Source: Splendidivirga corallicola (GTDB taxonomy: Bacteria; Bacteroidota; Bacteroidia; Cytophagales; Cyclobacteriaceae). Taken from it: a stretch of DNA of 64,000 bases. Of the stretch, positions 52,893-59,295 are shown piece by piece; within the stretch, counting starts at the first letter, position 1; each line of letters opens with the position of its first letter. The position numbers and the translations under genes are program-made. The DNA is taken from the NCBI GenBank assembly GCA_030442035.1, contig JAUJEA010000011.1:186001-250000 (forward strand), read 5' to 3'. The notes under the pieces are model-generated. The model was not told where the DNA came from, did not search any database, and saw only the letters and a program-made list of their open reading frames with translations.

Positions 52893-52924
52893 TTTGGAAA
52901 CTAAATAATTAATGCCTACGTTTG
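52893..52924 (+). promoter_or_regulatory. Promoter of the sulfur operon
   Basis: TTTG at 52893-52896 and TACGTTTG at 52917-52924 are 20 bases apart, a textbook Bacteroidota promoter. Transcription would start about seven bases downstream, directly ahead of the SAM riboswitch. Confidence 0.8.
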
Positions 52925-52952
52925 TAGAATCAAGTCAATTATTTCATAATTG

Positions 52953-53057
52953 ATTTATAAAGAAGCGCGGAGAGACAGGCTCTGTGAAGCGCTAGCAACC
53001 TAACGGCTCATGTCAAGGTGCTAAATCCTGATCCCGATATAAAGGGAGAATATAAAT
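52953..53057 (+). promoter_or_regulatory. SAM-I (S-box) riboswitch
   Basis: The aptamer is recognisable by its conserved core: GCGCGGAGAGACAGGCTCTG, GAAGCGCTAGCAACC and AAGGTGCTAAATCC. The closing stem P1 is ATTTATA (52953-52959) with TATAAAT (53051-53057). GCGC/GCGC closes P2. It binds S-adenosylmethionine and normally lowers expression when SAM is abundant. The expression platform is unclear: no terminator follows at once. Instead a small ORF begins 10 bases after P1. Confidence 0.93.
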
Positions 53058-53067
53058 TAATTGAACA

Positions 53068-53340: not shown

Positions 53341-53688
53341 ATGGCTATAATGATAACAGATGAGTGCATAAATTGTGGGGCATGTGAGCCGGAATGCCCA
53401 AACACCGCAATTTATGAAGGAGGTGCCGAATGGGCCTGGTCAGACGGGACAGATTTGAAGGAAGTAACACTGGAAAATGGTGATGTAGTGGACGCAAATG
53501 AAAGAAATGAACCTATTTCAGACGAGTTCTACTATATCGTTTCCGGAAAATGTACGGAGTGTACAGGGTTTCATGAAGAACCACAATGTGCTGCTGTTTG
53601 CCCAGTTGATTGCTGTGTGGAAGATCCGGATCATGAAGAGTCACAAGAAGCACTTATGGCTAAAAAGGAGCAATTGCATTTGAACTAG
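53341..53688 (+). CDS. 4Fe-4S dicluster ferredoxin
   Basis: The 115-residue protein carries two cluster motifs: Cys9, 12, 15, 19 (CINCGACEPECP) and Cys71, 74, 83, 87 (CTECTGFHEEPQCAAVCP), the latter with the extended spacing of the YfhL/Alvin type. An acidic insert separates them. As the first standard gene of the operon, it is a plausible electron donor to the sulfite reductase or APS reductase encoded downstream. Confidence 0.93.
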   Translation: MAIMITDECINCGACEPECPNTAIYEGGAEWAWSDGTDLKEVTLENGDVVDANERNEPISDEFYYIVSGKCTECTGFHEEPQCAAVCPVDCCVEDPDHEESQEALMAKKEQLHLN

Positions 53689-53706: not shown

Positions 53707-54894
53707 ATGAATTTTGAGACACAGGCAATAAGAACACAAAATGATAATTCATTGTACAGGGAGCATTCCACTCCCATCTACATGACATCAAGCTTTGTGT
53801 TTGAAAATGCCGAAGAAGCCAGGGCCTTGTTCGCCGATGAAATTGAGGGCAATATTTACACGCGCTATTCCAATCCAACCAATAACGAGTTCGTTGAAAA
53901 ACTTTGCCTGATGGAAGGCACGGAGGATGGCATAGCCACGGCTTCAGGTATGGCGGCCATGTTCTCAAGTATCGCTGCGTTGGTGGAAAGTGGGGATCAC
54001 ATTTTGGCATGTCGTTCTGTTTTTGGTTCTACACATCAAATTCTGACTAAGATCCTTCCAAAATGGGGAATCAGCCATACATATGCTGATATCAATAAAC
54101 CGGAGGAATGGGAAAATCTCATTCAGAAGAATACTAAAATGATCTTCGTAGAGACACCTTCCAATCCGGGTTTGGATCTGTTGGATTTGGAGTGGTTGGG
54201 TAAATTGGCCAATAAACACAATTTGATACTCAATGTTGATAATTGTTTTGCTACACCATATTTGCAACAGCCTGCTAAATTCGGTGCTCATATTGTTACA
54301 CATTCCGCCACCAAGTTCATAGATGGGCAAGGCAGAACAATTGGTGGAGCCATTCTGGGAAGCAAGGAGCTGATCCAAGAGATCCGTTTCTTTGCCAGAC
54401 ACTCCGGGCCTGCATTGTCTCCATTCAATGGATGGTTACTTTCCAAAAGCCTTGAAACATTGGCAGTCAGGATGGAAAAGCATTGTGAAAATGCTTTGAA
54501 AATAGCAGAATACCTGGATAATCACCAGGAATTGGAATTGGTGAAATATCCATTTCTTAAGTCGCATCCAAAATATGAATTGGCTAAAAAACAAATGAAG
54601 CATGGAGGTGGTTTGTTGACCTTTGTGGTCAAAGGAGGTTTGGAAAGAGGAAGAAACTTTTTGGACAATTTGAAACTGCTTTCTTTGACACCAAACCTTG
54701 GTGATACCAGAACTACAGTTACACATCCTGCTTCTACCACACATTCAAAGCTCACCGATGAAGAGCGTCTCGAAGTGGGTATAGTTCCGGGATTGGTAAG
54801 AATTTCTGTCGGACTTGAAAATGTCAATGACATCTTAGAAGATATAGAAAATGCCCTAAGGGCCTCTAAAATAAAAGAAGCAGAATTGATTTAA
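53707..54894 (+). CDS. metZ: O-succinylhomoserine sulfhydrylase-like PLP enzyme
   Basis: The 395-residue Cys/Met-metabolism PLP enzyme has the PLP Lys203 in THSATKFIDGQGRTIGGA and Tyr/Arg phosphate residues in YTRYSNPTNNEFVEKL. The N-terminal IRTQNDNSLYREHSTPIYMT is typical of MetZ. It would add sulfide to O-succinyl- or O-acetylhomoserine to make homocysteine, linking the sulfide made by the downstream genes to methionine. Cystathionine gamma-synthase is less likely. The second leader ORF starts 1 base after its stop. Confidence 0.88.
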   Translation: MNFETQAIRTQNDNSLYREHSTPIYMTSSFVFENAEEARALFADEIEGNIYTRYSNPTNNEFVEKLCLMEGTEDGIATASGMAAMFSSIAALVESGDHILACRSVFGSTHQILTKILPKWGISHTYADINKPEEWENLIQKNTKMIFVETPSNPGLDLLDLEWLGKLANKHNLILNVDNCFATPYLQQPAKFGAHIVTHSATKFIDGQGRTIGGAILGSKELIQEIRFFARHSGPALSPFNGWLLSKSLETLAVRMEKHCENALKIAEYLDNHQELELVKYPFLKSHPKYELAKKQMKHGGGLLTFVVKGGLERGRNFLDNLKLLSLTPNLGDTRTTVTHPASTTHSKLTDEERLEVGIVPGLVRISVGLENVNDILEDIENALRASKIKEAELI

Positions 54895-54895
54895 T

Positions 54896-55012
54896 ATGCA
54901 TGCAAAGAATATCCATATGATTTATAAACTATTCAATAGGTGCTGTTATGTCTGTTGTTGCTGTTGCATGTGTTGTAAAAACTATTGCTACGTCCGTATG
55001 GGTAATTCATGA
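54896..55012 (+). CDS. Cysteine-rich leader peptide 2 (candidate Cys-responsive attenuator)
   Basis: This 38-codon ORF starts at ATG 54896, one base after the metZ stop, and ends in TGA at 55010-55012. It has ten cysteines, nine of them within CCYVCCCCCMCC (residues 16-27), then KNYCYV. An inner ATG at 54917 is an alternative start. A strong terminator lies 20 bases after its stop and the sulfite reductase gene 97 bases after it. This is the classical leader-peptide layout: abundant Cys-tRNA gives termination, scarcity gives read-through. Confidence 0.78.
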   Translation: MHAKNIHMIYKLFNRCCYVCCCCCMCCKNYCYVRMGNS

Positions 55013-55050
55013 AGATATTTCGATGAATGAAGAAAGCCTCAGCGGATGTA
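54989..55050 (+). promoter_or_regulatory. Candidate antiterminator stem
   Basis: TACGTCCG (54989-54996) can pair with CGGATGTA (55043-55050) with one G-U wobble. The second arm covers the top of the terminator stem and its loop, so the two folds compete. A ribosome stalled at the Cys cluster would leave the first arm free; one reaching the stop codon at 55012 would cover it. Confidence 0.45.
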
Positions 55051-55067
55051 CACGCTGAGGCTTTTTT
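55033..55067 (+). terminator. Strong intrinsic terminator ahead of the sulfite reductase gene
   Basis: AAAGCCTCAGCG (55033-55044) and CGCTGAGGCTTT (55053-55064) form a perfect 12-bp stem with an eight-base loop, followed by TTT. It stands within the operon and 43 bases before the next ATG, which only makes sense as a regulated (attenuator) terminator or as the end of one operon before a separate promoter. Confidence 0.93.
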
Positions 55068-55109: not shown

Positions 55110-57269
55110 ATGACAACAATTTCACTAGAGAATGTCTCAAAAGAAGCTAAAAAGGACATTATTGAGCTTCAGGAAAAAATTGAGAAATTCAAGAAAGGCA
55201 AGATTCTGGAGGAACGATTCAAAGCCTATCGTTTGACAAGAGGTGTTTATGGCCAGAGACAACTGGGCGTTCAAATGTTTCGTTTGAAGATCCCTTATGG
55301 TAAAATAACCACCGATCAGTTAATCCGGGTAGCTGAAATTTCTGAAGAGTATACCAATGGAAATCTTCATGCTACTACAAGACAAAACTTTCAAATGCAC
55401 TACGTCAAGCTTGAAGATTCGCCGGAGATCTGGACAAAACTGGAAGAGGCGGGTGTTACTGCCCGGGAGGCTTGTGGAAATACAGTTAGAAATGTTACCG
55501 CTTCGGCATTGGCTGGTATTGATCCCGAAGAACCCTTTGATGTGGCTCCTTACGCCGAAGAGTTGTTCCAGTATTTTCTGAGAAACCCAATTTGCCAGGA
55601 TATGGGAAGGAAAATCAAGATAGCTTTCTCTTCAAGTGAAAAAGACAGTGCTTTCACTTATATCCATGACTTTGGTTTTATTCCAAGAGTAAAGACCGAA
55701 AATGGCCAAGAGGTTCGAGGCTTTAAAGTGCTGGTTGGTGGTGGACTAGGTGCACAATCTATTATTGCCCCTACTGCATTCGAATTTCTTCAGGAAGATC
55801 AGTTGATCCCATTTACCGAAGCTGCTATCCGCGTCTTCGATCGCTATGGAGAAAGAGAGAAGAGAGGAAAAGCGAGGCTGAAATTTTTAATAGAAGAAAA
55901 ACGAGGTTTGGGGCTAGAGAAATTTCTGGAGCTTGTTGAAGAAGAAAGAAAAGCAATTCCAAACAAATCATATACGATCAATAGGGATATCATTGGGGAA
56001 ACAGTAGTTCCTGATGCTGTAAATACTCCTGAAGTAGAAATTACAGAAAAGGCAAAATATGAGCAATGGCTTCAAACAAATGTATTTGAACAAAAGCAAA
56101 AAGACTTTTATGGTGTTCATATCAAACTGTTGTTAGGAAACATTTCAAGTGAAAAAGCTAAAGAGCTGGCTGCTGTTGTAAAAGAATTGGCAGCTGATGA
56201 CATCCGCATTACAATTAATCAGGGATTGCTCCTGAAGTTTGTTCGAAAGGAAAGCCTGCCATACCTTTTCTATCGTTTGAATCATTTAAATCTTGCTGAT
56301 ACAGGATTTGGAACTATCGCGGATGTCACAGCTTGTCCTGGTACTGATACTTGTAATCTGGGTGTGACCAACAGCACAGGTGCGGCAGTTGAAATTGAGA
56401 AAGTTATCAGAGATGAGTTTCCTCATTTGATCGCTGACTCGAATATCAATATCAAGATCAGTGGTTGTATGAATTCATGTGGGCAGCATATGATCGCCAA
56501 CATTGGATTTCATGGAAGTTCGATTAAAAACGGAGCGTTGATAGTCCCTGCATTGCAAGTGGTAATAGGCGGTGGCATAGATCCGGAAGGGAAAGGTTTT
56601 ATTGCTGATAAAGTGATCAAACTACCTACCAAAAAAATTCCGGATGCTTTGAGGATTCTGTTGCACGATTATGAAGAAAACACTCAGGAAGGTGAATATT
56701 TCAATGACTATTATCAACGTCAGGGTAAGATATACTTCTATGATTTATTAAAATCATTGGGAGATCTTACTGCACTTGAAAAAACCGATTACATTGATTG
56801 GGGACATTCAGAGCAATTCATTCCGGAAATCGGAACCGGTGAATGTGCCGGTGTAAGCTACGATGTGGTAAGCACCATTATCACCGATGCTGAAGAAAAA
56901 TTGTATTATGCCAACGAGGCATTCGCTGAAAACAAGTATTCCGATTCTATTTACAATAGTTACAATACATTCGTTGTCGGGGCAAAAGCGCTTCTATTAA
57001 GTAAGGATGTTAATTGTAATACACACATTGGAATCATCAGGGATTTTGATATCCATTTTTATCAGACCGGAGAAATTCAATTGGATCAAAACTTCGAAAG
57101 CCTGACACTTCAGATTAATAAAAATGATCCGACGGAAGCGTTTGCTAAAGCCTATCTGGCTCAGGCAGAGGATTTCCTGCAAAAGGTTAAAGAGATAAGA
57201 AAAGGTCAGATTGAAGCATCGGGTACAGATGAGGAGAAACTGGTCATCAACAATTTTTACAAAGCTTAG
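55110..57269 (+). CDS. Assimilatory sulfite (nitrite) reductase with HEPN-like C-terminus
   Basis: The siroheme enzyme makes sulfide from sulfite with six electrons. The two half-domains are visible, and the siroheme/4Fe-4S ligands are Cys409, Cys415 (CPGTDTCNLG) and Cys453, Cys457 (GCMNSCGQH). FKAYRLTRGVYGQRQ and NGNLHATTRQNFQMHYV are N-terminal family motifs. The last 130 residues (about 590-705) are an additional all-helical HEPN-like domain (AEEKLYYANEAFAENKYSDS). Operon context favours sulfite over nitrite. It is 719 residues. Confidence 0.9.
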   Translation: MTTISLENVSKEAKKDIIELQEKIEKFKKGKILEERFKAYRLTRGVYGQRQLGVQMFRLKIPYGKITTDQLIRVAEISEEYTNGNLHATTRQNFQMHYVKLEDSPEIWTKLEEAGVTAREACGNTVRNVTASALAGIDPEEPFDVAPYAEELFQYFLRNPICQDMGRKIKIAFSSSEKDSAFTYIHDFGFIPRVKTENGQEVRGFKVLVGGGLGAQSIIAPTAFEFLQEDQLIPFTEAAIRVFDRYGEREKRGKARLKFLIEEKRGLGLEKFLELVEEERKAIPNKSYTINRDIIGETVVPDAVNTPEVEITEKAKYEQWLQTNVFEQKQKDFYGVHIKLLLGNISSEKAKELAAVVKELAADDIRITINQGLLLKFVRKESLPYLFYRLNHLNLADTGFGTIADVTACPGTDTCNLGVTNSTGAAVEIEKVIRDEFPHLIADSNINIKISGCMNSCGQHMIANIGFHGSSIKNGALIVPALQVVIGGGIDPEGKGFIADKVIKLPTKKIPDALRILLHDYEENTQEGEYFNDYYQRQGKIYFYDLLKSLGDLTALEKTDYIDWGHSEQFIPEIGTGECAGVSYDVVSTIITDAEEKLYYANEAFAENKYSDSIYNSYNTFVVGAKALLLSKDVNCNTHIGIIRDFDIHFYQTGEIQLDQNFESLTLQINKNDPTEAFAKAYLAQAEDFLQKVKEIRKGQIEASGTDEEKLVINNFYKA

Positions 57270-57272
57270 AAG

Positions 57273-58034
57273 ATGAAAGCAAAACTAACATTGGTAGGTG
57301 CAGGGCCTGGAGATCCGGAACTGATTACACTAAAAGGGGTAAAAGCATTGTCTTCAGCAGATGTAATTCTGTATGATGCACTGGTACACCCTGATTTATT
57401 AGAGCATGCTAAACCAACGGCTAAAAAGATCTATGTCGGAAAAAGATCCGGGAATCATAGCTATTCTCAGGATGAGATTAATCAGCTGATTGTTGATCAC
57501 GCATTATCCGATGGACATGTGGTACGACTGAAAGGTGGTGATCCATTCATTTTTGGTCGTGGTAAAGAAGAAATTGAGTACGCCGAAACATTCAACATAG
57601 CAACGGAAGTGGTGCTGGGTATTTCCAGCATCAACCTTCCCGGCTACTATGGCATACCGCTTACAAGGCGAGGCATTAACGAAAGTTTTTGGGTAGTTAC
57701 AGCTACTACCAGTGATGGCAAGCTCTCCAAGGATGCTGAACTTGTTGCCCAATCTTCCGCCACGGGTGTATTTCTAATGGGTCTCAAAAAGCTTAAAGAG
57801 ATCACAGAAGTTTATCAACGGCACGGTAAAGGCAACGTCTATGCGGCAATTATTTCTAAAGGCTCTTTGGAGGATGGCAAATTATTACTGGGCACAGTAG
57901 ATACGATCTACCAGCTCAAACAGCAAACCAAAGTAGCTTCACCAGCCATTATTGCTATTGGCGAAGCCGTTGGAACACATGAATATTTCTACGAGAATAT
58001 TCAAAACATCAATGAAAAACTGAAAGTCCTATGA
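57273..58034 (+). CDS. cobA: Uroporphyrinogen-III C-methyltransferase
   Basis: This 253-residue SUMT methylates uroporphyrinogen III twice to precorrin-2, the first step to siroheme. Motifs are LVGAGPGDPELITLKGVKAL, VVRLKGGDPFIFGRGKEE and GIPLTRRGI. The start is 3 bases after the sulfite reductase stop; the stop overlaps the next gene by 4 bases. Its place supplies cofactor for the upstream reductase. Confidence 0.95.
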   Translation: MKAKLTLVGAGPGDPELITLKGVKALSSADVILYDALVHPDLLEHAKPTAKKIYVGKRSGNHSYSQDEINQLIVDHALSDGHVVRLKGGDPFIFGRGKEEIEYAETFNIATEVVLGISSINLPGYYGIPLTRRGINESFWVVTATTSDGKLSKDAELVAQSSATGVFLMGLKKLKEITEVYQRHGKGNVYAAIISKGSLEDGKLLLGTVDTIYQLKQQTKVASPAIIAIGEAVGTHEYFYENIQNINEKLKVL

Positions 58035-58627
58035 ATCAAAAGAAGGCGCAGGGTAACGTGTTATTTCCTATATTCCTGAAAATAGATCAGTTACAGGTTC
58101 TTATTGTAGGGGGAGGGAACGTTGGATTGGAGAAATTGGAGGCATTGCTGAAAAATGATCCAAATGCACGTGTGAATCTTGTTGGTATTTCTATTAAAAA
58201 AGAAATTGTGGATCTGTCACATCAGCATCCTAATATTTCATTATCCGAAAGAGCCTTTCAAGAGCATGATTTGGAGGGGGTAGATGTGGCCATACTTGCC
58301 ACTGCGGATAGAAAGACTAACCTCGAAATCAAAAATCTGGCACGCGGGAGAAGAATACTCACTAACGTAGCTGACACACCGGACCTCTGCGATTTCTATT
58401 TAGGATCAACAGTCAAAAAGGGAGATTTAAAAATTGGTATATCTACCAATGGCACCTCTCCCACATTTGCTAAAAGATTTAGAGAAGTGTTGGAAGATAT
58501 TTTACCAGATGAAACCAATGCGTTACTTCAAAACCTGAGGGGTATCAGAGATAATTTAAAAGGTAATTTTTCCTACAAAGTGAAAAAGCTTAACGAAGTA
58601 ACATCATCACTGGTGAGCAATAAGTAA
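58031..58627 (+). CDS. Precorrin-2 dehydrogenase / sirohydrochlorin ferrochelatase
   Basis: The 198-residue protein is of the CysG N-terminal/Met8 type. It oxidises precorrin-2 with NAD and inserts iron to complete siroheme. The Rossmann motif is VLIVGGGNVGLEKLEALL (here QVLIVGGGNVGLEKLEALL). LTNVADTPDLCDFYLGSTVK and IGISTNGTSPTFAKRFRE follow. It is coupled to cobA by a 4-base overlap. Confidence 0.92.
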   Translation: MNQKKAQGNVLFPIFLKIDQLQVLIVGGGNVGLEKLEALLKNDPNARVNLVGISIKKEIVDLSHQHPNISLSERAFQEHDLEGVDVAILATADRKTNLEIKNLARGRRILTNVADTPDLCDFYLGSTVKKGDLKIGISTNGTSPTFAKRFREVLEDILPDETNALLQNLRGIRDNLKGNFSYKVKKLNEVTSSLVSNK

Positions 58628-58638
58628 ATGAGAATTCT

Positions 58639-59295
58639 ATGATTGATTATAATTTAATAAGTGATCATTATAAAACATTGTCCCCCAAAGAAAGACTGGA
58701 GGAACTGTTCAATGAATACGATCCTGAAAAGATATTGATGACCTCTTCTTTTGGAAGCACGTCGGTCATTTTGCTGCATCTGATCAGCCAGGTTCGCCCG
58801 AATCATCCGGTTTATTTCATTGATACCGGTTATCTTTTTGAAGAAACGGTGGCATATAAAGATTTACTGGCTGAAAAATTTAATTTGAATATACAAACAC
58901 TCAAAGCTTTGGATAACAGACACCGTTTCACCAAAGAAAATCAAAGCTGGAAATACAATAAAGATCTTTGCTGCTTCATTAACAAGGTCGATCCCGTCGA
59001 TCAGATCAAATCAAATTATGACATCTGGATCTCAGGGCTTTTAGGTTTTCAAAATGTCAATCGGCAAAACCTGAGAATCTTTGAACCAAAGGAAGACATT
59101 GTAAAGTTTCATCCAATTATTGATCTTTCAAAGGAAGACGTATCGCTTTATACGCATATCTATGATCTTCCAACAAACCCATTGGTGTTCAAAGGTTATG
59201 ACTCCATTGGCTGTACACATTGTACGCATAAAGGACAGGGTAGAGAGGGAAGATGGATCGACTCCAACAAAACGGAATGTGGGTTACATGTGTAG
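58639..59295 (+). CDS. cysH: Adenylyl-sulfate (APS) reductase-like protein
   Basis: The 218-residue protein is of the PAPS/APS reductase family. MTSSFGSTSVILLHLISQ forms the nucleotide loop. The double Cys in DLCCFINKVDP and the CTHC in IGCTHCTHKGQGREGRW would bind a 4Fe-4S cluster, indicating the APS (not PAPS) type. The catalytic Cys is in KTECGLHV at the C-terminus. It makes sulfite for the upstream reductase. The ATP sulfurylase genes are not in this window. Confidence 0.9.
   Translation: MIDYNLISDHYKTLSPKERLEELFNEYDPEKILMTSSFGSTSVILLHLISQVRPNHPVYFIDTGYLFEETVAYKDLLAEKFNLNIQTLKALDNRHRFTKENQSWKYNKDLCCFINKVDPVDQIKSNYDIWISGLLGFQNVNRQNLRIFEPKEDIVKFHPIIDLSKEDVSLYTHIYDLPTNPLVFKGYDSIGCTHCTHKGQGREGRWIDSNKTECGLHV

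Follow-up and report, generated by a model that had tools for sequence, protein, structure and literature searches.

Ribosome-mediated attenuators of the trp and his type share a leader ORF rich in codons for the amino acid of the pathway, an antiterminator, an intrinsic terminator and biosynthetic genes downstream. In Actinobacteria, including mycobacteria, runs of Cys codons occur in short ORFs ahead of sulfur genes and are Cys-responsive where tested (PMC1262725, PMC4633059, PMC9031893), a literature that agrees with the first-pass annotation of our locus, which had pointed to Cys-rich upstream ORFs attenuating sulfur genes in mycobacteria. These actinobacterial leaders are leaderless, act translationally and have no terminator hairpins. 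The nearest precedent for Cys codons combined with an intrinsic terminator is the uORFC-8-2 motif upstream of cysS in Rhodobacterales, for which ribosome-mediated attenuation has been proposed; this alphaproteobacterial motif is found with cysS only, carries two tandem Cys codons (positions 14-15) and is conserved in RNA sequence and structure (PMC8632094). Within Bacteroidota, the main text of a study of Flavobacterium psychrophilum notes leader-peptide attenuation upstream of amino acid biosynthesis operons and contains no Cys leader or sulfur operon (PMC9723704). Two further systems tie a riboswitch to a second translational signal, namely a B12 riboswitch/uORF combination in M. tuberculosis (PMC11260477) and a SAM-I riboswitch in Xanthomonas that senses uncharged tRNA-fMet (PMC7270179). 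A search limited to the main text of open-access papers returned neither a Cys leader from Bacteroidota nor any composite of SAM-I with a leader peptide, consistent with the initial statement that no described example was known from this phylum.

Here we examine a sulfur operon of Splendidivirga corallicola that lies in the window, by which we mean the whole 64,000-nucleotide stretch of DNA that was analysed. Two Cys-codon leaders are found in this operon, leader ORF 1 before the ferredoxin and metZ genes and leader ORF 2 between metZ and sir. Leader ORF 1 and the SAM-I riboswitch in front of it are additional to the features listed in the first-pass annotation. The features, in order along the operon, are as follows:

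52894..52924, + strand: Bacteroidota-type promoter, TTG (52894-52896), 20 nt, then TACGTTTG (52917-52924); consensus match only
52952..53058, + strand: SAM-I riboswitch aptamer; Rfam RF00162
53068..53205, + strand: leader ORF 1, 45 aa, ending KCCCYCCCCC; start codon 9 nt past the SAM-I aptamer
53341..53688, + strand: 4Fe-4S ferredoxin; Pfam Fer4 families, NCBIfam YfhL-type above cut-off
53707..54894, + strand: metZ-like O-succinylhomoserine sulfhydrylase; Pfam Cys_Met_Meta_PP, best NCBIfam PRK08133, slightly below cut-off
54896..55012, + strand: leader ORF 2, 38 aa; conserved as Cys codons only
54985..55009, + strand: antiterminator strand with an 8-bp core (54989-54996), pairing with its own terminator arm
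55033..55067, + strand: intrinsic terminator, 12-bp stem, 8-nt loop and U tract; -24.8 kcal/mol
55110..57269, + strand: sir, siroheme sulfite reductase; Pfam NIR_SIR and NIR_SIR_ferr
57273..58034, + strand: uroporphyrinogen-III C-methyltransferase (siroheme synthesis); NCBIfam above cut-off
58031..58627, + strand: precorrin-2 dehydrogenase-like protein, CysG N-terminal domain; NCBIfam TIGR01470 above cut-off
58639..59295, + strand: cysH, phosphoadenylyl-sulfate reductase; NCBIfam PRK02090 above cut-off

The metZ stop codon (TAA) occupies 54892-54894 and the ATG of leader ORF 2 follows at 54896, so that the 38-codon ORF with ten Cys first proposed to start one base 3' of metZ matches base for base. 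Its product, MHAKNIHMIYKLFNRCCYVCCCCCMCCKNYCYVRMGNS*, ends at a stop codon at 55010-55012 and has no match in Pfam or NCBIfam; its Cys cluster spans codons 16-27 (54941-54976), with an additional Cys at codon 31 (54986-54988). The 12-bp terminator that had been placed within 20 bases of this stop begins 20 nt after it and consists of the 5' arm AAAGCCTCAGCG (55033-55044), the loop GATGTACA, the 3' arm CGCTGAGGCTTT (55053-55064) and a T run up to 55067; the folding z-score of the region is -3.1. Beyond the hairpin, Pfam identifies the expected siroheme sulfite reductase gene starting at 55110. Residues 590-667 of the sir product also match a HEPN domain (PF05168, above the Pfam cut-off). The competing pair noted at the outset, TACGTCCG (54989-54996) with CGGATGTA (55043-55050), is correct and comprises 8 bp with one G-U. 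The full antiterminator exceeds this core: the strand at 54985-55009 pairs with both the terminator 5' arm and the loop at -19.6 kcal/mol, an energy that none of 200 dinucleotide shuffles equalled and that is better than that of every swap with another locus.

Like the trp- and his-type attenuators, leader 2 thus has regulatory codons, an intrinsic terminator before the structural gene and a mutually exclusive antiterminator strand; it differs from them in its Cys codons, in its occurrence in Bacteroidota, in the position of the sir copy within an operon, 1 base past metZ, and in that tandem copies are often found. By description it falls outside uORFC-8-2 on account of its gene (sir), its Cys positions and its phylum, and in general the leaders described here have long Cys runs, no conserved sequence and sulfur assimilation genes downstream where that motif has a conserved sequence and cysS. 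Nor does it belong to the leaderless, translational polycysteine class of mycobacteria. A consensus search found no promoter in the gap between metZ and sir in the window, leader 1 follows a 107-nt aptamer, and the leaders before sir and cysM have conserved intrinsic terminators with antiterminators.

To place these leaders in the context of the host genome (7.77 Mb), we listed every in-frame stretch of four Cys codons and inspected its surroundings. Nearly all of the approximately 34 distinct runs are off-frame or antisense inside longer genes. Only three are intergenic, preceded by a start codon and followed by a gene on the same strand, and all three precede sulfur genes: the two leaders of this operon, before ferredoxin-metZ (53068) and sir (54896), and a third on another contig before a cysteine synthase gene. 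The third (L004/L195; contig C6, 94467-94487, minus strand) has seven Cys in the product MSKYMFPIAKSTACCCCCCCAFLSGRSLYE*, with terminator hairpins behind it and then a cysM-like cysteine synthase gene. This census was cleaner than a gene-agnostic search for six Cys codons across 391 genomes of the order, which was too noisy because its matches were mostly off-frame reads of repeats within genes, although a metY locus (L136) surfaced from it. A simple-repeat artefact was rejected as the source of the Cys runs because they mix TGT with TGC and are broken by Tyr, Met, Asn, Val or Trp.

The first-pass annotation had named orthologous gaps devoid of Cys codons as the observation that would tell against it; what we found is that Cys runs and terminators are conserved and that the remaining peptide is not. 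Sir orthologues were drawn from 59 related genomes and 80 named loci. A terminator lies within 200 nt at 65 sir loci, and 33 of these have an ORF with at least four Cys in 10 codons that ends beside it. Since a few of the 33 are likely chance matches, we put the count at approximately 30 sir orthologues preceded by a Cys-rich short ORF and a similarly spaced terminator, distributed over Cytophagales, Saprospiraceae, Chitinophagales and Sphingobacteriales. In the closest orthologues, those of Cesiribacter andamanensis, Fulvivirga kasyanovii, F. marina, Marinoscillum furvescens, Flexithrix dorotheae and many Saprospiraceae and Chitinophagales MAGs, the ORF and terminator lie immediately 5' of sir; an antisense-strand control for this comparison, run at an unchanged threshold, gave 0 of 78. 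The leader peptides have nothing in common but Cys: the runs range from CCC to eleven Cys, with shorter ones (CCC, CCCC, CCxC) in Pedobacter and Mucilaginibacter, and Cys spacing, length and the other residues are all unconserved. Leu and Val clusters counted in these leaders are probably off-frame readings (TTG, GTT) of the TGY repeat. The leader is missing at some sir orthologues, namely Spirosoma- and Runella-type loci and L017, whose metZ-sir gap contains neither ORF nor terminator while the same genome retains a SAM-I-linked leader upstream (L265). Of eight close cysM orthologues, seven carry the leader; it is absent from all 22 paralogues examined at greater distance.

Several variations on this arrangement were also observed. 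Eight loci (L023, L046, L047, L049, L052, L056, L108 and L198) carry two complete copies of the Cys leader and terminator in tandem before a single gene. Another leader type, seen at L022, L024, L028, L039 and L078, shares a motif with Cys and Trp codons (RRACWFWCC or CACWYWCC), which may reflect added Trp sensing or shared ancestry. Outside the usual set of genes, Cys-tailed leader ORFs precede an apparent membrane transporter (L270), uncharacterised proteins (L287 and L292) and a TonB-dependent-receptor-like gene (L123), all of which are possible further members of the regulon.

Attenuation would require the sequence that follows the Cys codons to pair better with the terminator arm of its own locus than with the arms of other species. 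Across 39 sir-type leaders, mean antiterminator pairing is -14.6 kcal/mol with the locus's own arm, -9.8 with swapped arms and -9.1 after shuffling. The own-locus total lies 10.5 standard deviations past the permutation mean and is reached by 0 of 20,000 permutations, and eight cysM leaders replicate the effect (P=0.00035); kinship among loci inflates these statistics, and the sir and cysM sets are separate from each other. The competition between antiterminator and terminator first proposed for the single locus is matched by locus-specific pairing in both sets. The layout is that of a classic attenuator: the pairing strand extends from approximately -21 to -2, counted from the stop codon, and the terminator follows the stop at a distance of 25 nt (interquartile 20-29). 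At this position, the strand would be covered by a ribosome finishing the ORF and left free by one stalled in the Cys run. In equilibrium folding of the full-length RNA with a ribosome held at the Cys codons, most loci continue to favour the terminator (0.81 vs 0.95); with the ribosome masked in this way 5 of 39 loci flip, and the window locus keeps its terminator. Since the switch is not visible at equilibrium in most loci, the antiterminator would have to act co-transcriptionally, before the 3' arm of the terminator is made.

Taken together, conservation confined to Cys codons, a locus-specific antiterminator and the lack of a consensus promoter between terminator and sir support the attenuation reading, and we estimate a probability of roughly 85% that 54896-55067 is a ribosome-mediated transcription attenuator sensing charged tRNA-Cys. 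From these sequence features we infer that the leader ORF is translated, that ribosomes stall on it, that transcription and translation are coupled, and in which direction the element responds. RNA polymerase would arrive by read-through, having started at the promoter ahead of ferredoxin-metZ and passed the SAM-I riboswitch there, with a ribosome following on the leader. When cysteine is ample, the ribosome would pass the Cys codons, reach the stop at 55010 and cover 54985-55009, so that the two arms of the terminator could pair and transcription would end before sir. Under a shortage of Cys-tRNA(Cys), the ribosome would stall in the Cys run and leave this strand free to pair with the emerging terminator 5' arm and loop, giving read-through into sir, the siroheme synthesis genes and cysH.

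Terminators between two genes are ordinary, and the hairpin could simply end the ferredoxin-metZ transcript, with sir expressed from a promoter of its own and the Cys ORF incidental; the existence of sir orthologues without a leader fits such an arrangement. However, the Cys ORF and terminator accompany sir even where the upstream genes differ between genomes, the own-locus antiterminator pairing would be left unexplained, and no consensus match to a separate sir promoter was seen. A copy of the Bacteroidota promoter element TAnnTTTG precedes the SAM-I riboswitch (at 52917, TTG lying 20 nt earlier). Across loci, the 5546 nt before leaders contain 11 copies and the 1860 nt from terminator to sir contain none, so that read-through past the attenuator is the simplest account of sir expression. 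We therefore regard a plain terminator as very unlikely. Still harder to credit is that the ORF product is itself a functional Cys-rich peptide that binds metal or senses redox state in the manner of a metallothionein or CruR. Cys clusters do bind metals, and the CruR nascent peptide senses copper via CXXC (PMC9426467), but the absence of any Pfam or NCBIfam match, the unconserved spacing, length and surrounding sequence of runs that vary from three to eleven Cys, and an antiterminator match for which a ligand-binding peptide does not account make this an extremely improbable explanation.

The remaining alternative is that the poly-Cys ORF gates translation of the downstream gene or access to a Rho site, as in mycobacteria, where polycysteine upstream ORFs control downstream translation (PMC9031893), and that the hairpin is secondary. 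Leader 1 lends this some weight, having no obvious intrinsic terminator, and the 90 nt that follow SAM-I-linked leaders are C-rich (C 0.25 vs G 0.16 over 30 loci, without a background control). For sir and cysM, the strong conserved intrinsic terminator with its matched antiterminator argues against it and we consider it unlikely there, whereas for leader 1 a translational or Rho-dependent route is the likelier one. At leader 2, then, we favour cysteine-sensing transcription attenuation.

Leader 1 is distinguished by what precedes it. The aptamer at 52952-53058 scores 77.3 bits against the RF00162 covariance model, above the gathering cut-off of 44.4. Folding of the leader 1 region found no intrinsic terminator (z = -0.1), and for this reason we claim no terminator mechanism for it; likewise, no intrinsic terminator was seen behind the SAM-I-linked Cys leaders inspected, whose ORFs end directly in Cys codons. 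We scored as a composite any short ORF with its ATG 5-15 nt past a SAM-I aptamer and at least three Cys among its last twelve codons. In relatives, this arrangement precedes ferredoxin-metZ at 10 of 10 loci, sir at 5 of 5 and metY at 16 of 21 (two of the 16 counted by eye), as opposed to metZ alone at 1 of 6, metH at 0 of 21, metX at 0 of 4 and metB at 0 of 2. Comparing ferredoxin-metZ, sir and metY with metH, metX and metB gives P = 5e-13 by Fisher's exact test, in which the loci are not independent. The carriers would be genes of the sulfide branch point, and the non-carriers metH, metX and metB. The best SAM-I matches across the class, which lie mostly before metH and have no Cys run, with CC at one metY locus (L302), agree with this gene specificity and say little about its breadth. 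At two loci before metB- and metZ-like genes (L225 and L255), SAM-I occurs without a Cys leader and a plain intrinsic terminator lies right behind the aptamer, indicating that two SAM-I expression platforms coexist.

In comparison to the M. tuberculosis and Xanthomonas systems, which also link a riboswitch to a second translational signal, the arrangement here places an ORF with terminal Cys codons 5-15 nt past a SAM-I aptamer, and it recurs ahead of metY, ferredoxin-metZ and sir. We consider the chances evenly balanced that in Cytophagales it forms a two-input element, in which SAM controls translation of the leader and Cys-tRNA controls stalling of the ribosome at its end, where it probably shields a Rho site. 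SAM binding would hinder initiation on leader 1, a ribosome at the terminal Cys codons would shield the Rho entry site, and repression would be lifted when SAM and Cys are both low. In the window, this composite is stacked with the separate Cys attenuator in one operon.

Overall, the element before sir is real and conserved and is most likely a cysteine-sensing transcription attenuator, and it would represent classic ribosome-mediated attenuation with Cys codons of a kind apparently undescribed in Bacteroidota. If so, Bacteroidota would regulate sulfur assimilation by cysteine itself, using ribosome-mediated attenuation. Bacteroidota ribosomes use Shine-Dalgarno sequences little, and transcription-translation coupling would be required at least in the leaders. 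Because the amino acid can be read straight from the codons, such elements identify the regulated sulfur genes in any genome. If the SAM-I and poly-Cys composite is indeed a two-input switch, it would be an unusual riboswitch that gates a codon-based sensor.
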